Notes under the pieces: model-generated | The model's database searches: none | Seen by the model: the letters and a program-made list of their open reading frames with translations, nothing else | What the model was told of the DNA's origin: nothing | Assembly (NCBI RefSeq): GCF_022479115.1 | Contig: NZ_CP092497.1 | Coordinates: 6,262,001 to 6,326,000, forward strand | Origin: Amycolatopsis sp. EV170708-02-1 | GTDB taxonomy: Bacteria > Actinomycetota > Actinomycetes > Mycobacteriales > Pseudonocardiaceae | Direction: 5' to 3' | DNA length: 64,000 nt | Shown here: positions 43,210 to 50,601 of the stretch, one piece after another | Layout: each line of letters begins with the position of its first letter | Numbering within the stretch: the first letter of the stretch is position 1 | Made by a program: the position numbers and the translations under genes

Positions 43210-46073
43210 ATGGTGATCGGTGGCTGCCGACGCAGGACGAGTTCGCCCATACTCGTCGGCCGTGAGGCGGAACTACGCGCGCTCCTCGACGGCGCGATGC
43301 GCTCGCCGTCGGTGCTCATGCTCGAAGGGGAAGCGGGCGTGGGCAAGACCCGGCTCGCCACCGAACTGCTGGCCTGCGCCGAACTGGCCGGACGGCCGGT
43401 CCTCACCGCGGCCTGCCAGCCGCTGCGCGAGCCTTTTCCGTACGGCGTCGTCTTCGACGCGCTGAAGGACGTCCGCCCGGCGCGTGAGCTCAACCCGGTG
43501 ACCGGCGTCCTCGCGCCCTACTTGCCCGAACTGGCGGCATTCCTGCCGCAGCCGCCACCACGGCCCGGCGATCCGAGGGCCGGACGCCACCAGCTCTTCC
43601 GCGCCGTCCGGGAACTGCTCGGCTCGCTGGGCCCGCATGTCCTGCTCATCGAAGACCTCCACTGGGCGGACGACGGTTCCCGCCGTCTGCTCCGGTTCCT
43701 GATGACCGAACCGCCCGCCGGCCTGACGCTCCTGGTCACGTACCGGCGCGAAGAGACCCCGGGCGGGATCCCGCTCGGCAGTGCCTACCGGCCGACGCCC
43801 GGCACCGCGCACACGCTCGTCACGCTCCGGCCACTGGACCGCGACGGCGTCCAGGCACAGGTTTCGGCCCTGCTCGGCGAAGCGAACGTCTCCGCCGAAT
43901 TCGCCGCGCGGCTGCACGAGCGGACCGCGGGGATCCCGTTCGTGGTCGAGGAGATCGTGCACGCGATCGGAGGCGTCGAAGGCGCGGTGCACGCCGACGG
44001 CGCGACCGCGCGGCGGCTGCTCGACACGGTCGAAGTCCCGGCGCTGCTGCGGGAAGCGACGGTCGAACGGCTCATGGCACTGCCGCCCGTCTCCCGGCGG
44101 ATCACCGACGCCGCCGCCGTCCTCGGCACACCGTCCACTTCGGACCTGCTGGCCGCCGTGGCCGCGCTCACCCCGAACGCGCCCGCCGCGCGCTCGTGCT
44201 CGCGCTCGAACGCAACGTCCTCGTGGAATCCGGCGAAGGCAGGTACGGCTTCCGGCACGCGTTCGCCCGGCAAGCCGCGTACCGCACCATCCCAGGTCCC
44301 GATCGCCAGGAACTGCACCGGCGGGCCGCACGGCTGCTGCGCGACCGCCTCCCGCAATCCCTGGTGCGGCTGGCCGAACACTGCCGGAAGGCGGGCGACC
44401 GGGCCGGTGCCCTGAAATACGGTGAAGCGGCCGCGGATCAGGCGTCGACGGTCGGCGACCTCGCCACCGCGACGGATCTGCTCCGCACCCTGCTCGACGA
44501 ACCGGGTCTCCAACCGTCCGATGTGGACAGACTGGCGGTCAAGTTCAGTTCGGTGGCGTGCAACGGGCTCGCGCAGACCGAAGTCGTCCCGGCGCTGGAG
44601 CGGCTGCTCACCGACGGCAGGCTGTCCGGACGGCTGAGCGGCGAGGTCCGGCTGGGGCTCGGGCTCCTGCTGGTGCGCCAGGCGGGCGGCTTGGAGGCGG
44701 CGAGGACCGAGATCGAGATCGCCGTCAACGACCTCGCCGACCGGCCCGACCTGGCGGGCCGCGGGATGGGCGTCCTCGCCCAGCCCTGGGTCGGCGCGAC
44801 CCCGCTGCGGGAGCACCGGCGCTGGATGGACCGGGTGGACGAGCTCATCGAAAGCGCCACGGACCGGCGGCTGAAGATCATCCTGCTGGCCAACAACGCG
44901 GCGTCACGGCTGCATATCGGGGACCCGCGCGGCTGGGACATGCTGGACCGGGCGCCCACCACCGTCGGTTCCCCCGACGAACAACGGCATCTGGCGCGGC
45001 TGCACTGCAACAGCGCCGACGCGTGCGCCTGGACCGGTCACCACCGGCGGGCAAGGAGCCTGCTGCACAGCGGGATGCAGCTGGCCGCCGACTGCGGGGC
45101 GCCCTACGTCGTCAGCACCGCCCGCGCGACGGCCGTCCACACCGACTGGCTCACCGGGAACTGGGACGGCCTCGCCGAACGGGCCTGCGCGCTGATCGAC
45201 GAGTACCGCGACCTCCTGCCGGTGACCAGCGAACTGTGCCTGGTGCTCGGCCTGCTCGCCGCCGCCCGCGGCGAATGGGACGAGGCCGCGGCCCGGTTCG
45301 CCGGAACCGCGGCGGATCAGCCCGAGAACGCGTTCACCCCGGTCGCGATCGCCGCGCACGCCGGGATGGCGGGCATGCTGCTCGCGCAGGACCTCGGCGA
45401 GGCCGCCGTCACCCAGGCCGAGCAGGGGCTGGAACTCTTGCGCGCCAAGGGTGTCTGGGCCTGGGGCGCCGACCTGCTCATGGCCGCCGTCGACGCGTAT
45501 TGCGCCACGGGACGGGACGCGGAGGCGCAGGCACTGACCGACGAGTTCGAACGCGAGGTCGGCGACCTCGACGCACCGTCGACCCGGGCCGCGCTTGCCG
45601 CGAACCGCGGTCTCATCGCGGCGTCCCGAGGCGACCACACCGAGGCGATCGAGGCCTTCGACCAGGCACGGACCCGGTTCGAGGCACTCCCCGCGCCCTA
45701 TCACGCGGCGCTGGTCGCCGAACGGGCCGCGCGCTGCCGTCTCGCCCGCAACGAAGACGTCGCCGAGACGTTCGCGGCGCTCGCGGAGACCTTCGACCAC
45801 CTCGGCGCCACGCGGGACGCCGCGCGCTGCCGCCATGCCTTCCGGTCCACCGGCGCCGTCGCCCCCTCGCGGCGCGGGCGCCGGGGTTACGGCGACGAAC
45901 TTTCCCCACGCGAGCGCGACGTCGCCCGCCTGCTGGCCGCCGGGCACACCAACCGGGAGATCGCCGAGGTGCTGTTCCTGTCCCGGCGCACGGTGGAACA
46001 GCACGTCGCGAGCGTGCTGCGGAAGCTGAAGGTGCGGTCGCGGAGCGAGCTGGCGGGGCTGCGGTCGGCCTAG
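43210..46073 (+). pseudogene. frameshifted large LuxR-family (LAL/MalT-type) ATPase regulator
   Basis: Frame 1 from ATG 43210 carries a Walker A motif (EGEAGVGKTRLA) and Walker B (HVLLIEDLHWADD). Near 44190 the frame changes (one base missing in GCCGCGCGCTCGTG), and the next frame continues LVLALERNVLVESGEGRYGF through TPR-like helices to a LuxR helix-turn-helix (LSPRERDVARLLAAGHTNRE...TVEQHVASVL) at the C-terminus. With one base restored the product is 954 residues, the usual size for this class. It would be an ATP-dependent transcription activator, and the divergent protease genes are plausible targets. Confidence 0.82.
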
Positions 46074-46088
46074 CCCGGCTCGGTGGAT

Positions 46089-46240
46089 CGCGTGACCGAT
46101 CGGACGGCACGCGTGATCCGACGGACGGCACGCGTGACTGGATGGACGACACGCGTGATCCGGCGGGCGCGTCCGTGTGCCGTCCCTCCAATCACGTGTG
46201 CCGTCCATCTGGACACGAGTGTCGTCCGGCTGGTCACGCG
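46089..46240. repeat. dyad-symmetric array with exact 21-bp period (array 1)
   Basis: CGCGTGA-type words start at 46089, 46110, 46131 and 46152, followed by reverse-complement words (TCACGTG, ACACGAG, TCACGCG) at 46192, 46213 and 46234. The step is 21 bases on both sides. Each unit ends with GGACGGCA-like sequence or its complement. The 396-base gap 46074-46469 holds this array, a possible promoter (TTGCGC-N17-GATGAT, 46280-46308) and a short leader ORF. Confidence 0.75.
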
Positions 46241-46356
46241 TGACGGACATGGCTTCACGGACCCCGGGAATTAAATCGGTTGCGCACGCCGCGGGGGTCC
46301 GGGATGATCGTCCGCGATCCGGCAGGGAGCCGGTGGATGCGACAGGGAGGTGCCTC

Positions 46357-46413
46357 GTGCTGATGACTGTCCGGGGCCTTGGCCGCCCCCATCCACTCGC
46401 CCCTCGCGGCTGA
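46357..46413 (+). CDS. possible 18-residue leader peptide before the RIO kinase gene
   Basis: GTG at 46357 is preceded by GGGAGG with 6 bases of spacing, a stronger ribosome site than most in the window, and reads MLMTVRGLGRPHPLAPRG before a stop. It lies 56 bases upstream of the RIO kinase start and could be a regulatory leader. Only position and the ribosome site support it. Confidence 0.35.
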   Translation: MLMTVRGLGRPHPLAPRG

Positions 46414-46469
46414 GCGCGGAGCCACGACGCTCGCCCGGTGGGGCATCCCTGATCTAGGAGAACCCACCA

Positions 46470-47410
46470 GTGCGCAAGCACGACCTCGAAGAGTCTTACG
46501 AACAACGTCCTCGCCGCACCCGTCGTGCCCGTTTCGACGACGAACCCGAACCCACCCGAGGCGGACGGCTCACCGAAGCCGAACGTGTCCGCCTCGCCCG
46601 GTTGCGGGAGGACGCCTACACCGAGACCGCCATCCCCGACGGCGCCGACCGCTGGAGCACGTGGGGGAAGCGGAGCAAGGACCGTTGCCGCGCCCGGACT
46701 GGGTGATCACCGAACTGGCGGCGGTCGACACCGAGCTCGGCATCCTCAAAACCGGCAAGGAGGCGGACGTCCACCTCGTCCGGCGCAACCTGCCCGGCAC
46801 CGACGGCACCGTGCTCGCCGCCAAGCGCTACCGCAGCGGCGAGCACCGGCTGTTCCATCGCGACGCCGGCTACCTCGAAGGCAGGCGGATGCGGCGTTCA
46901 CGGGAGATGCGGGCGATGGAGTCGCGCAGCAGCTTCGGCCGCAACCTCATCGCCGAACAGTGGGCCGTGGCCGAGTTCGGCGCACTGAGCAGGCTCTGGT
47001 CTGTCGGTGCGCCCGTGCCGTACCCGGTGCAGCGCGACGGCACCGAACTGCTGCTGGAATTCCTCGGCGAGGGCGAGACCGCCGCCCCGCGGCTGGCACA
47101 GGTCCGGCCGGAGCCCGATCAGTTGCGGGAACTGTGGTTCCAGACCTCGGCGATGCTGGAATTGCTGGCGTCGCAGGGGCTCGCGCACGGTGACCTCTCG
47201 GCGTACAACCTGCTCGTGCACCGCGAACGGATCATGGTGATCGACCTCCCCCAGGTGGTCGACATCGTGGCCAATCCCGGCGGGCTGGAGTTCCTCGCGC
47301 GTGACGTGCGGAACATCGCGACGTGGTTCCACTCGCGCGGGTTGCCGGAGCGGCTCACGGCGGTGCCGGAGCTGATCGAGGAGCTGCGAGAGATCGCAGG
47401 TCTTCGCTGA
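46470..47410 (+). pseudogene. frameshifted RIO1-type serine/threonine kinase
   Basis: Frame from GTG 46470 (AGGAGA upstream) encodes a charged N-terminus (MRKHDLEESYEQRPRRTRRA). Near 46679 the frame shifts; restoring one G in AAGGACC gives SKGPLPRPDW and joins the kinase domain. That domain has LKTGKEADVHLVRR (nucleotide loop), HGDLSAYNLLVH (catalytic Asp and Asn) and VIDLPQVVD (metal Asp), as in RIO kinases. The repaired product is 313 residues. Bacterial RIO kinases have no settled role. The gene is followed by a hairpin terminator and a DEAD-box helicase. Confidence 0.82.
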
Positions 47411-47429
47411 CCGTCCACAGTGTCTCGAA

Positions 47430-47467
47430 GGGGTCTTTCCCGGCACGATCACGCCGGGAAAGACCCC
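47430..47467 (+). terminator. hairpin after the RIO kinase gene
   Basis: Perfect 15-base arms (47430-47444 GGGGTCTTTCCCGGC and 47453-47467) with an 8-base loop, 19 bases after the stop codon. Confidence 0.65.
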
Positions 47468-47502
47468 GCCGTGGAGACCCTGCCCACAATCGGTCCCTCC
47501 AG

Positions 47503-47755
47503 TTGGGAGGCCGGATAACGGTCCGGTACAGTAGTGACAGACCGCAACCGGCGGCGTGGATGAGTTGGTGTCCGTCGCCTCCAAAGCCAACCGAATGGCT
47601 CGCGGTATCCGTATCAATCCATTGGCGCGCGGTGTCACGCAGACGCGGTGTGCCGGGTTCGTCCCTGTGAACGCCCATCTGTGCACACCATCTTGCCCTG
47701 CCTGCGTGCGGGCAGCCCGGGCCTCCTTGCGACGTGCCACGTCCGAGAGGCATTT
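47503..47755 (+). promoter_or_regulatory. promoter and long leader of the DEAD-box helicase gene
   Basis: TTGGGA (47503-47508) and TACAGT (47527-47532) are separated by 18 bases and make a plausible SigA-type promoter. This would leave a 5' leader of about 215 bases before the GTG at 47756. Long leaders are common for cold-regulated RNA helicases, so post-transcriptional control is possible. A 67-codon frame (47556-47759) ends in a GTGA overlap with the helicase start. The remainder of the gap is the RIO terminator. Confidence 0.5.
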
Positions 47756-49255
47756 GTGACAGTCACGTTCAACTCCGGCCACGTCTCACCGTCGGCGCGT
47801 CAGCACCGCAAGCCGCGCACCCGCCCCGCGGGTGACGCGATGCTGCGCGAAGACGCCGTCGAGACGGTCAAGGCGAAGACCTGGGCGGAACTCGGCCTCC
47901 CCGAGCCGCTGCTGCGCGCTCTGGCCGACGCCGGTATCACCACCCCCTTCCCGATCCAGTCGGCGACCATCCCCGACGCGCTCGCCGGGCGCGACGTGCT
48001 CGGCCGCGCCCAGACCGGTTCCGGCAAGACCCTGGCCTTCGGCCTCGCGATGCTGACCCGGCTCAACGGCGGCCGTGCCCGGCCGAAGCACCCCCGCGCG
48101 CTGATCCTGGTCCCGACCCGCGAGCTGGCCATGCAGGTCGCCGACTCGCTGACCCCGCTGGCCAAGTCCCTCGGCCTGTGGTGCCGCACCGCCGTCGGCG
48201 GGATGGCCTTCACCCGCCAGGCCGACGCGCTTTCCCGCGGCGTCGACCTGCTGATCGCCACCCCCGGCCGGCTGTCGGACCACGTCCGCCAGGGCACCGC
48301 GTCGCTGTCCGACGTCAACTTCGTCGCGCTCGACGAGGCCGACCAGATGGCCGACATGGGCTTCATGCCGCAGGTCCGCGAGATCCTCGACCTGACCCCG
48401 GCCCGCGGCCAGCGCCTGCTGTTCTCGGCCACCCTCGACGGCGACGTCGACAGGCTGGTCCGCGCGTACCTGACCGACCCGGTCACGCACTCGGTCGCCC
48501 CGTCGACCGCGAGCGTCACCACCATGGACCACCACGTGTTCCAGGTGTCGCACCAGGACAAGCAGGACATCATCACCGAGATCGGCGCCCGTGAGGGCCG
48601 CACGATCATGTTCGTCCGCACCAAGCACCACGTGGACCGCCTGACCGAGCGCCTGCGCGAGAAGGGCGTCCACGCGGCGGCCCTGCACGGCGGCAAGACC
48701 CAGGGCCAGCGCAACCGCGTCCTCGCGGACTTCAAGGAGGGCTACGCGCCCGTCCTCGTCGCCACGGACGTCGCCGCGCGCGGTATCCACGTCGACGACA
48801 TCTCGCTGGTGCTGCACGTCGACCCGGCCGCCGACCACAAGGACTACCTGCACCGCGCCGGCCGCACCGCGCGCGCCGGGGCGTCCGGTGTCGTGGTCAC
48901 GCTGGTCACCCACGACCAGCGCCGCATGGTGCGCCGGATGACCGACCGCGCAGGCGTCCGCGCCGAGCAGACCACGGTCCGCCCGGGCGACGCCGAGCTG
49001 GCTCGGATCACCGGTGCGCAGCAGCCCAGCGGCGAGCCGGTCGTCGAGCGCCGTCGTGAGTCCCCGCGTCGTGGCGGTGGCCGCGGCTACGGTGGCGGCG
49101 ACCGCGGCTACCAGGGTTCGCGCGAGGGTCACGGTCACCGCGAAGGCGGCCGTCCCGGCGGCTTCCGCGGCCGCCCGCGTCGTGGCGAGTCCGGTGGCGG
49201 CAACGGCCGTCCGCAGCGTCCGGGCGGTCGCCCGCGTCGCAGCTACGACAGCTGA
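47756..49255 (+). CDS. DEAD-box ATP-dependent RNA helicase
   Basis: 499 residues. Motifs in order: Q motif (TPFPIQSATIPDALAG), I (AQTGSGKT), Ia (PTRELAMQ), II (DEAD in VALDEADQMADMGF), III (SAT), V (ATDVAARGI) and VI (HRAGRTARAG). The C-terminal 80 residues are Arg/Gly-rich (RRGGGRGYGGGDRGYQG), a likely RNA-binding tail. It fits RhlE/DeaD helicases involved in RNA decay or ribosome assembly. The GTG at 47756 has GAGAGG 5 bases upstream; the longer frame upstream is non-coding in character. Confidence 0.93.
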   Translation: MTVTFNSGHVSPSARQHRKPRTRPAGDAMLREDAVETVKAKTWAELGLPEPLLRALADAGITTPFPIQSATIPDALAGRDVLGRAQTGSGKTLAFGLAMLTRLNGGRARPKHPRALILVPTRELAMQVADSLTPLAKSLGLWCRTAVGGMAFTRQADALSRGVDLLIATPGRLSDHVRQGTASLSDVNFVALDEADQMADMGFMPQVREILDLTPARGQRLLFSATLDGDVDRLVRAYLTDPVTHSVAPSTASVTTMDHHVFQVSHQDKQDIITEIGAREGRTIMFVRTKHHVDRLTERLREKGVHAAALHGGKTQGQRNRVLADFKEGYAPVLVATDVAARGIHVDDISLVLHVDPAADHKDYLHRAGRTARAGASGVVVTLVTHDQRRMVRRMTDRAGVRAEQTTVRPGDAELARITGAQQPSGEPVVERRRESPRRGGGRGYGGGDRGYQGSREGHGHREGGRPGGFRGRPRRGESGGGNGRPQRPGGRPRRSYDS

Positions 49256-49261
49256 GTCGTA

Positions 49262-49355
49262 ACTCGCGTGTTCCTGAGCGGGACTCGCGTGCTTGAAGGC
49301 GTAACTCTCGAGTTACGTCCCCAAGCACGCGAGTCCCGTCTTCATTCACGCGAGT
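49262..49355. repeat. dyad-symmetric array with exact 21-bp period (array 2)
   Basis: ACTCGCGTG or its variant ACTCTCG starts at 49262, 49283 and 49304, and reverse-complement units (CGAGT, CACGCGAGT, CACGCGAGT) end at 49313, 49334 and 49355. The centre is GTAACTC-T-CGAGTTAC. The spacing and mirror arrangement equal array 1 although the bases between the cores differ. It sits directly behind the helicase stop. Confidence 0.75.
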
Positions 49356-49413
49356 TCCGCGTTCCGGCACCCGTCTGACGGGTTTGCGGGACGCGGATGG
49401 GAGACTGCGGGAC

Positions 49414-50601
49414 GTGACTTCTCCCGGCCCCGCCTCCCAGAACCTCCCGCCCGACCAGGTCTTCGACTGGCTCGACGTGGAAGCGGAGAAGCGGGCCGAG
49501 GCCGGGCTGGTGCGCAAGCTGCGCATCCGGCAGGCGCAGGAACCGGAGCTGGATCTCGCCGGAAACGACTACCTCGGCCTCGCCAGGGACAAGCGCGTCG
49601 CCGGCGCGGCGGCCGCGGCCGCGTTGCGCTGGGGCGCCGGGGCGACCGGTTCCCGGCTCGTCACCGGCACCACCGAGGTCCACGCCGAACTCGAGCACGA
49701 ACTCGCCCGCTTCTGCGGCACACAGGCCGCGCTGGTCTTCTCGTCCGGTTTCACCGCGAACCTCGGCGCCGTCACGGCCCTGTCCGGCGCGGATTCCGCG
49801 ATCGTCACGGACAAGTACATCCACGCCTCGCTGATCGAGGGTTGCCGCCTGTCCCGGTCGGACATCGCCGCCGTCGCGCACAGCGACCCGAACGCCTTCA
49901 AGCACGCGCTGGCGACCCGCCGCAAACCGCGTGCGCTCGTCGTCACCGATTCCGTGTTCTCCGTCGACGGCGACATCGCCCCCTTGGAACAGCTCGCCGG
50001 TGTCTGCCGGGAGCACGGTGCGTCGCTGCTCGTCGACGACGCGCACGGCTTCGGTGTCCTCGGCGAAGGCGGCCGCGGCGCCGTCCACGCGGCGGGGCTC
50101 TCCGGCGCGCCGGACGTCGTCACCACGATCACCCTGTCGAAATCCCTTGGGGCGCAAGGCGGAGCGGTGCTCGGGCCGCGTCGCGTGATCAAGCATCTCG
50201 TGGACACCGCGCGCAGTTTCATCTTCGACACCGGCCTCGCGCCCGCGAGTGCCGCCGCCGCGCTGGCCGCCCTCACCGCGCTGAAGGCCGAGCCGGAGCT
50301 GGCCGCCAAGGTGACCGAAGCCGCGGGAAACCTCGCGATGCAGTTGAAATCGGCGGGTTTCCGGGTCAGTCTCCCGGACGCCGCGGTGATCTCGGTGCAG
50401 GCTCCGTCGCCGGAGGCGGCCGTCGCGTGGGCTGCCGCCTGCGCCGATCAGGGCGTGCGCGTCGGCTGCTTCCGGCCGCCGTCCGTGCCCGACGGCATCT
50501 CCCGCCTGCGCCTGACCGCGCGGGCCGACCTCACCGAGGCCGACGTGGACCGCGCGGTCGGGGTGATCACGGCCGCGGCGCCTCCCGGCGCCACATCGTG
50601 A
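49414..50601 (+). CDS. bioF: 8-amino-7-oxononanoate synthase
   Basis: 395-residue PLP enzyme of the alpha-oxoamine synthase family, joining pimeloyl thioester and alanine in biotin synthesis. It has LDLAGNDYLGLARD near the start, VTDSVFSVDGDIAPL, the cofactor Asp in LLVDDAHGFGVLG, and the Schiff-base Lys in TLSKSLGAQGG. No other biotin genes are in the window, so the gene is separated from bioA/D/B, and another oxoamine synthase role cannot be excluded. The 3' end overlaps a convergent GNAT gene by 35 bases. Confidence 0.88.
   Translation: MTSPGPASQNLPPDQVFDWLDVEAEKRAEAGLVRKLRIRQAQEPELDLAGNDYLGLARDKRVAGAAAAAALRWGAGATGSRLVTGTTEVHAELEHELARFCGTQAALVFSSGFTANLGAVTALSGADSAIVTDKYIHASLIEGCRLSRSDIAAVAHSDPNAFKHALATRRKPRALVVTDSVFSVDGDIAPLEQLAGVCREHGASLLVDDAHGFGVLGEGGRGAVHAAGLSGAPDVVTTITLSKSLGAQGGAVLGPRRVIKHLVDTARSFIFDTGLAPASAAAALAALTALKAEPELAAKVTEAAGNLAMQLKSAGFRVSLPDAAVISVQAPSPEAAVAWAAACADQGVRVGCFRPPSVPDGISRLRLTARADLTEADVDRAVGVITAAAPPGATS

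Follow-up and report, generated by a model that had tools for sequence, protein, structure and literature searches.

Two short intergenic arrays in the chromosome of Amycolatopsis sp. EV170708-02-1 belong to a family of dispersed arrays with near-exact spacing, a conserved core and a placement at the 3′ ends of genes. The stretch of DNA that was analysed (the window) comprises 64,000 nucleotides, positions 6,262,001 to 6,326,000 of contig NZ_CP092497.1, and both arrays lie in an Amycolatopsis genome of 9.66 Mb held in a single contig. We propose, tentatively and at a little less than an even chance, that the arrays are helically phased sites for a putative DNA-binding protein and would act as gene-end boundaries or roadblock terminators.

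Anatomy of the two arrays in the window

Positions are counted from the first base of the window; spacer types A and B are defined in the next section.

46087..46242, no strand: array 1, whole; cores start at 46087, 46108, 46129 and 46150 (forward) and at 46172, 46193, 46214 and 46235 (reverse)
46087..46157, forward strand: array 1 forward arm; cores at 46087 (ATCGCGTG), 46108, 46129 and 46150 (CACGCGTG), in 21-bp steps, with type B spacers
46158..46171, no strand: array 1 centre, G+C rich; the core-to-core step is 22 bp here
46172..46242, reverse strand: array 1 reverse arm; cores at 46172 (degenerate TCCGTGTG, recognised by eye), 46193, 46214 and 46235
49263..49304, forward strand: array 2 forward arm; cores at 49263 and 49284, with type A spacers
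49305..49312, no strand: array 2 centre; palindromic core CTCTCGAG, common to both arms
49313..49354, reverse strand: array 2 reverse arm; cores at 49326 and 49347
49279..49338, no strand: array 2 inner hairpin; arms 49279-49307 and 49310-49338, with two double compensatory changes among orthologues

All steps of array 1 are 21 bp except the one of 22 bp at its centre, and the five cores of array 2 (starting at 49263, 49284, 49305, 49326 and 49347) are each separated by 21 bp. These coordinates bear out the first-pass annotation of the window in placing two arrays here, with a 21-base step running first forward and then in reverse. The unit counts that it gave, 4+3 and 3+3, were slightly off, array 1 being 4+4 with one degenerate unit and array 2 being two units, a shared centre and two more; the period that it called exact holds at every step in both arrays bar the one across the centre of array 1. 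It also placed the arrays on either side of RIO kinase and helicase genes, which is right as to position and incidental, since the genome holds hundreds of arrays.

A genome-wide family with a conserved core

The pattern CWCGCGTG-N13-CWCGCGTG, with at most one mismatch, gave 335 and 316 matches on the two strands of the genome (651; palindromic type B pairs score on both strands), against 5 and 5 (10) for a reversed control pattern. Arrays at the 21-base period are thus far more frequent than the control, and chance, the outcome that was to refute the first-pass annotation, is rejected. A BLAST search with 46060-46260 gave at least 76 matches in the same genome, the best 40 of 153 candidates being scored. 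Ten arrays were found in a contiguous 424 kb, which extrapolates to ∼230 arrays per genome; a looser rule gave 14 clusters there, two of which (6369181 and 6533344, the second inside a gene) were judged to be chance.

Array statistics were taken from 102 arrays in 89 stretches (890,567 bases), most of them picked by pattern or BLAST, with clusters at most 200 bp from an earlier cluster removed as duplicates. The orientation and spacer statistics depend on a scoring matrix built from pattern-chosen seeds, and three contiguous stretches (1.224 Mb, from this genome and two relatives) served as an unselected check. In these, same-orientation core pairs numbered 122 at 21 bp, 2 at 20 bp and 8 at 22 bp, against a mean of 3.7 for every other distance in the range 10-40 bp.

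The conserved core is ACWCGCG(TG), and the 13-bp spacers vary. Neighbouring units differ at 210 of 1624 core positions versus 859 of 2639 spacer positions (about a third), in a sample that could reveal no other spacings because the unit caller demanded 13-bp spacers. Two main spacer types were distinguished, type A (ACTCGCGTG followed by CTTGGAGGCGTA-like sequence) and type B (CACGCGTGA followed by YYRGAYGGACGA-like sequence), and these are mixed within some arrays. The first half of the spacer keeps a pyrimidine-pyrimidine-purine-purine order more than it keeps exact bases, in a set where the caller's scoring favours such spacers. The earlier statement that symmetry and spacing are conserved rather than sequence is therefore wrong, as the core is conserved; the spacers differ, and the dyad is not the feature that relatives share.

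Of the 102 arrays, 77 have forward followed by reverse units (forward-to-reverse) and 4 are reverse-to-forward; all units point forward in 11 and in reverse in 4, and 6 arrays are mixed. When the length of one core is subtracted, the distance that separates the innermost forward and reverse spacers of the forward-to-reverse arrays deviates by no more than 1 bp from a multiple of 21 in 66 of 77 cases; nine more fall at 9-12 modulo 21 and two elsewhere, so that 75 of the 77 are no more than 1.5 bp away from a multiple of 10.5 bp. This clustering at helical multiples indicates that helical phase is maintained across the centre, to which shared ancestry of the arrays may contribute.

Placement relative to genes

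Genes were called with a simple codon-usage script rather than a standard gene finder. Two or more spacers were called in 98 arrays of this genome; 52 of these are flanked by convergent genes, 40 by tandem genes and 3 by divergent genes, with 1 in a predicted gene and 2 at the edge of a stretch. For comparison, the contiguous 424 kb contains 14 convergent, 67 tandem and 55 divergent gaps that are 100 bp or longer. The 20 arrays of the unselected stretches comprised 8 convergent, 11 tandem, 0 divergent, 0 in a gene and 1 at an edge, against 50 convergent, 190 tandem and 153 divergent gaps of at least 100 bp. Coding sequence makes up ∼88% of the 1.224 Mb, yet none of these 20 strict-rule arrays is within a predicted gene; with 1 of 98 so placed in the selected set, the intergenic position first reported for the window pair extends to the family.

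In tandem gaps, 35 of 40 arrays are nearer to the upstream stop codon than to the next start, with median distances of 30 and 146.5 bp, respectively. No strand bias was seen when the spacers of these 40 gaps were oriented by gene (72 forward versus 82 reverse), and a strand-specific RNA motif is hence unsupported. The arrays thus sit just after gene ends, often convergent ones, keep away from divergent promoters, and may mark or enforce a stop of transcription. A reading as coding heptapeptide repeats (21 bp being 7 codons) was rejected, since the arrays follow stop codons, show by eye no third-position pattern in the spacers and have a 22-bp period in Pseudonocardia and some genomes of a second family.

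Predicted hairpin formation in the Amycolatopsis arrays

The alternative that survives best, though we consider it doubtful, is that the arrays are simply long I-shaped, U-poor, bidirectional hairpin terminators, whose arms pair in the transcript and for which 21-bp repeats are only the mode of arm growth. Both window arrays do fold well beyond shuffled sequence: 46078-46260 of array 1 forms one long imperfect hairpin (−118 kcal/mol, z = −7.2), and the RNA fold of array 2 has z = −9.1. The predominance of forward-to-reverse dyads in this genome is also as expected for hairpins, and long-stem, U-poor, bidirectional 3′ ends occur in Streptomyces clavuligerus, according to the part of PMC8269248 drawn on here.

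Compensatory change gives a divided answer. In the inner 27 bp of array 2, five orthologous rows (four distinct) contain five variable pairs, two of which are double-changed, in favour of a hairpin, and one of which is broken in relatives; outward of the inner 27 bp there are eight variable pairs and no double change.

Matching between the arms likewise depends on the spacer type. Type A spacers match across the dyad at 9.31 of 13 positions versus 8.77 for shuffles (62 pairs, P = 0.0002), and the innermost ones at 9.92 versus 9.10 (37 pairs), with P = 0.008 for the shortest centres (16 pairs), 0.003 for centres of 17-29 (9 pairs) and 0.06 for those of at least 38 (11 pairs). Second spacers show no match above shuffles, and type B arms show no excess (9.84 versus 9.98 of 13; 57 pairs). 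Neighbouring type A units within one arm also match above shuffles (8.77 versus 8.18), so that copying inside arrays may explain part of the match across the dyad.

When arms were swapped between arrays, the real type A arms folded better in 18 of 31 cases (P = 0.16) and the real type B arms in 8 of 26 (P = 0.04, in the opposite direction); this test used 57 of 70 eligible forward-to-reverse arrays, omitting 10 of mixed type and 3 without enough partners. Nor is GU favoured over CA when tandem arrays are oriented by gene (55 versus 50), and the maintenance of helical phase across the centre is a further point against a hairpin as the whole explanation. A long hairpin as the only constraint is unsupported by the arm-swap and type B shuffle tests. 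As far as sequence comparison can tell, type A arrays behave like a hairpin in their inner part, and the rest gives no such sign. A search of window positions 45900-49500 against Rfam returned three matches at E up to 1, all below the gathering threshold (best 23.8 bits versus 62).

Arrays in related genomes

Exact pattern matches were found in 33 of 60 Amycolatopsis genomes, the present one included. In a sample of the family Pseudonocardiaceae, 21 of 120 genomes and 12 of 46 genera had exact matches, some of them single matches at chance level; the remaining genera of the family retain the core, with spacers that differ by genus. A class-wide search gave matches in 80 of 345 genomes, mostly at control level. 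By our reading, the excess outside the family is confined to one further family (f28), where it is clear in G484, G515 and G420 and slight in G492, G499 and G428. The search of this and related genomes proposed with the first-pass annotation has thus revealed such arrays in other genera and in a second family, at 21 or 22 bp.

The period is almost exclusively 21 bp in seven groups and 22 bp in Pseudonocardia, where 14 adjacent pairs are at 22 bp and none at 21 bp. Within f28 it is 21 bp in G420 and G492 and 22 bp in G484 (mostly), G515 and G499 (three of five fetched). Repeated 7-mers in named 20-kb loci gave the same periods, with an excess at 21 bp in an Amycolatopsis set (which also included some further genera represented by one locus each) and at 22 bp in Pseudonocardia; loci from Lentzea, Actinokineospora, Saccharopolyspora, Umezawaea, Kutzneria and Saccharothrix gave no clear excess, the last two being disturbed by runs of N.

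Placement is similar in these relatives. Hand tallies, in which repeated loci count once and two clusters in one gap count twice, gave 23 convergent, 15 tandem, 1 divergent and 1 edge for 40 clusters from the family genomes and G021 (an Amycolatopsis genome), and 13 convergent, 8 tandem, 1 divergent and 1 inside a gene for 23 clusters from f28.

Orientation is different, a point against the hairpin explanation. Of the 55 clusters that could be resolved outside the present genome, 51 are of one orientation and 4 reverse-to-forward, with none forward-to-reverse; by group, one orientation was found in 23 of 27 clusters from family genera, 7 of 7 from G021 and 21 of 21 from f28. The tally uses exact ACTCGCG/CGCGAGT only, as under a looser rule, which blurs near-palindromic cores, 39 of the 54 clusters outside f28 were scored as mixed. 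Applied to the arrays of the present genome, the exact rule scored 21 of 49 clusters as forward-to-reverse, 3 as reverse-to-forward and 25 as of one orientation, so it undercounts dyads. Three Pseudonocardia clusters were scored as of one orientation, though one shows a forward-to-reverse dyad by eye. RNA folding of 12 arrays from elsewhere, hand-chosen as mostly of one orientation and including three from G021, gave z above −1 in nine. The feature common to the genomes compared is, from sequence, the phased half-site after genes, and not the forward-to-reverse dyad or the hairpin.

Exact matches numbered 0 and 4 in two close relatives, G016 and G049 (93% and 95% helicase identity), and 86 to 278 in 13 genomes of the rest of that group, with 22 in G020; the first two are natural losses that should be useful in tracing a binding protein. 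Apparently unrelated intergenic tandem repeats were seen in Saccharothrix (L141 5740-5820, 21 bp), Actinokineospora (L175 8672-8746, 16 bp) and Pseudonocardia (L184 8125-8191, 14 bp).

Exchange with hairpins at gene ends

At the 3′ end of the helicase gene, 30 loci were fetched, the present one included, and two were cut by contig ends; of the 28 readable loci, 4 have an array and 24 a hairpin (stem of at least 11). A comparison of the present genome with G008 gave 11 orthologous array gaps, 7 of which have the array on one side only, with a hairpin opposite in 4 of the 7. Swapping of arrays and perfect, terminator-like hairpins at orthologous gene ends suggests that a bound array would do the job of a terminator; it is also a point in favour of the hairpin explanation. 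The 424 kb has 33 convergent gaps of 40 bp or longer that contain no array, and 25 of these have a stem scoring at least 12.

Convergent gaps usually carry a palindrome, and many of these come from a few recurring families. Further near-perfect 3′-end palindromes that recur in convergent gaps and in gaps beside arrays are CTCGTGAGTGG...CCACTCACGAG, CGTGAAGGCCTCCTT..., CGCGTTTCGTCCTCTGAATGCGG... and TGTCGCGAAAGCCACTTTCG.... In G049, with its four exact array matches, the gap after the helicase gene (L212) is 727 bp long and contains several different palindromes. Elsewhere in the present genome, the array at 6220611-6220862 adjoins a 5S-rRNA-like sequence (recognised by eye), and its region and that of 7023463 are 86.9% identical over 864 bp.

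The rapid turnover seen against G008, a close species, is what would be expected if the arrays were selfish or neutral dispersed repeats, tolerated just past stop codons and with no role for the host, an explanation that we think improbable. It would account for the patchy distribution in the genus and for long runs of identical units in some genera, and avoidance of promoters alone would yield a 3′-end placement. A block of 288 bp, 95.5% identical at the two sites and flanked by halves of the CTCGTGAGTGG palindrome, moreover encloses two type B arrays, at 1700833 and 2114726 (L035, L004), and is possibly a composite mobile element. Against this, the core and near-exact spacing are kept while the spacers diverge by about a third, the same core and two-turn period recur with different spacers across genera and in a second family, and convergent gaps are over-represented even relative to tandem ones. 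A RAYT-type (Y1) transposase (PF01797) was detected in 0 of 60 Amycolatopsis genomes, with 5 of 14 control genomes positive, and mobility of the RAYT/REP kind was rejected. Array 1 had no match among 72,556 plasmid records and no phage match, so a plasmid or phage origin was also rejected, on the strength of a search made with array 1.

The least probable of the alternatives, to which we give little weight, is that the arrays are sites for a nucleoid or topology protein (gyrase, HU-like or ParB-like) and absorb supercoils between convergent genes without stopping transcription, for which the two-turn phasing, the enrichment between convergent genes and a pyrimidine-purine step in most spacers (which the caller's scoring favours) would speak, and beside which termination better explains the exchange with hairpins at the same gene ends.

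A proposed model of phased sites as gene-end boundaries

Protein binding, cooperativity and termination are what we infer from these comparisons. A half-site ACWCGCG, or its complement, would recur every two helical turns (21 bp, or 22 bp in some genomes), so that all sites face the same side of the DNA. A putative sequence-specific protein would fill the sites side by side and cooperatively, and the coated stretch would halt or pause RNA polymerase arriving from either side. The array would then be a strand-neutral boundary, or roadblock terminator, placed after genes and chiefly between convergent ones. The dyads of the present genome would be arrays that additionally gained a hairpin, with the innermost type A part terminator-like. 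Since what the genomes share is the phased half-site and not the dyad or hairpin, cooperative binding of a protein to DNA fits best. A cooperative protein on one face of the DNA had already been suggested for the window arrays; two-turn spacing, phasing across the centre, the lack of strand preference and the 21- or 22-bp periods of relatives agree with it.

Several observations weigh against this model. No binding protein was found, and none was sought by whole-genome comparison. The array must be dispensable, as 27 of the 60 Amycolatopsis genomes are without an exact match, and the exact spacing could come partly from copying of whole arrays. The match of inner type A spacers across the dyad points to a hairpin, the strongly forward-to-reverse order in this genome (77 versus 4) is unexplained by a simple row of sites, and 3 of the 12 folded arrays from elsewhere (L362, L354 and L286) do fold well, at z of −2.6 to −4.3. 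Exchange with hairpins is also incomplete: in three of the seven unshared cases against G008 the array-less side is without such a hairpin, and the three array gaps that could be compared in G019 have the array on both sides, one probably through a chance match. Finally, a separate long hairpin accompanies the array in 22 of 51 convergent gaps and in 12 of 39 tandem gaps, so that replacement is not strict and the array is not always the sole candidate terminator.

A wider claim, that some actinomycetes end genes by a dedicated protein-based boundary system, in which a conserved DNA-binding protein fills ACTCGCG-type arrays and halts polymerase from both sides, evolutionarily interchangeable with hairpin terminators, seems to us possible and on balance unlikely. 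The way genes are separated in GC-rich actinomycetes is incompletely understood, and hundreds of arrays per genome offer a direct handle on it. Actinomycetes of this kind carry many antibiotic gene clusters, and clean gene boundaries matter when such clusters are engineered. Because 21 bp preserves the reading frame, arrays could also be mis-annotated as small repetitive proteins, as the open frames across the window arrays suggest.

Genes around the window arrays

44196..46073, forward strand: gene 5′ of array 1, LuxR-type regulator with GerE domain; 14 bp from its last base to the first core start
46703..47410, forward strand: RIO kinase coding region between the arrays; its 5′ part is out of frame in the assembly
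47756..49255, forward strand: DEAD-box helicase; array 2 begins 8 bp past the last base of its stop codon
49414..50601, forward strand: gene 3′ of array 2, class I/II aminotransferase-fold enzyme

The product of 49414..50601 presumably resembles 8-amino-7-oxononanoate synthase. The RIO kinase frame is broken (window 46470-47410): from the GTG at 46470 it reaches a stop after 78 amino acids, and the same start gives 313 amino acids in six relative loci (L119-L122, L202 and L208). The break could be an assembly error. The nearest named records for this kinase are from Amycolatopsis keratiniphila (98%) and A. oliviviridis (97%), the organism's own record possibly having been left out.

Comparison with known systems

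The iterons of plasmid origins are direct repeats of ∼19-22 bp, two helical turns, to which proteins bind cooperatively on one face of the DNA. The arrays resemble them as direct repeats at two helical turns, and differ in being many chromosomal arrays after genes rather than one origin cluster beside an initiator, with no known initiator. The neighbours of the window arrays (LuxR regulator, RIO kinase, helicase and aminotransferase-fold enzyme) likewise provide no origin or initiator setting.

The first-pass annotation knew of no named element of this form, and none was described among the open-licence literature matches listed or in the part of PMC4210621 consulted; the array family is apparently unnamed. 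It shares with repetitive extragenic palindromic (REP) sequences and bacterial interspersed mosaic elements (BIME), as described in PMC2817692, hundreds of dispersed extragenic copies, a mosaic make-up and rapid turnover between close species, and like them it is extragenic and exceeds 100 copies (the array number being an extrapolation). REP sequences have a head motif GT(A/G)G adjoining a short palindrome. The arrays differ from them in being built of helically phased half-sites, mostly of one orientation outside the present genome. With no RAYT in 60 genomes, they are not REP elements in the sense of PMC2817692.

I-shaped bidirectional terminators, in the excerpt of PMC8269248 cited above, likewise lie after genes and between convergent genes, and the dyads of the present genome fold into long stems as they do. 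The arrays are set apart by their 21-bp modular build, a core that crosses genera and mostly hairpin-free, single-orientation forms elsewhere.

Termination by protein roadblocks is reviewed in PMC10310618, where a role in delimiting transcription units is suggested with reference to work in yeast. The bacterial cases in the part of that review used here are regulators, nucleoid proteins and Tus, with no mention there of a genome-wide gene-end array. The likeness lies in the proposed way of working, in which a bound protein would stall the polymerase; if this is true, the arrays would be a bacterial counterpart of eukaryotic roadblock terminators, with their own genome-wide set of sites.

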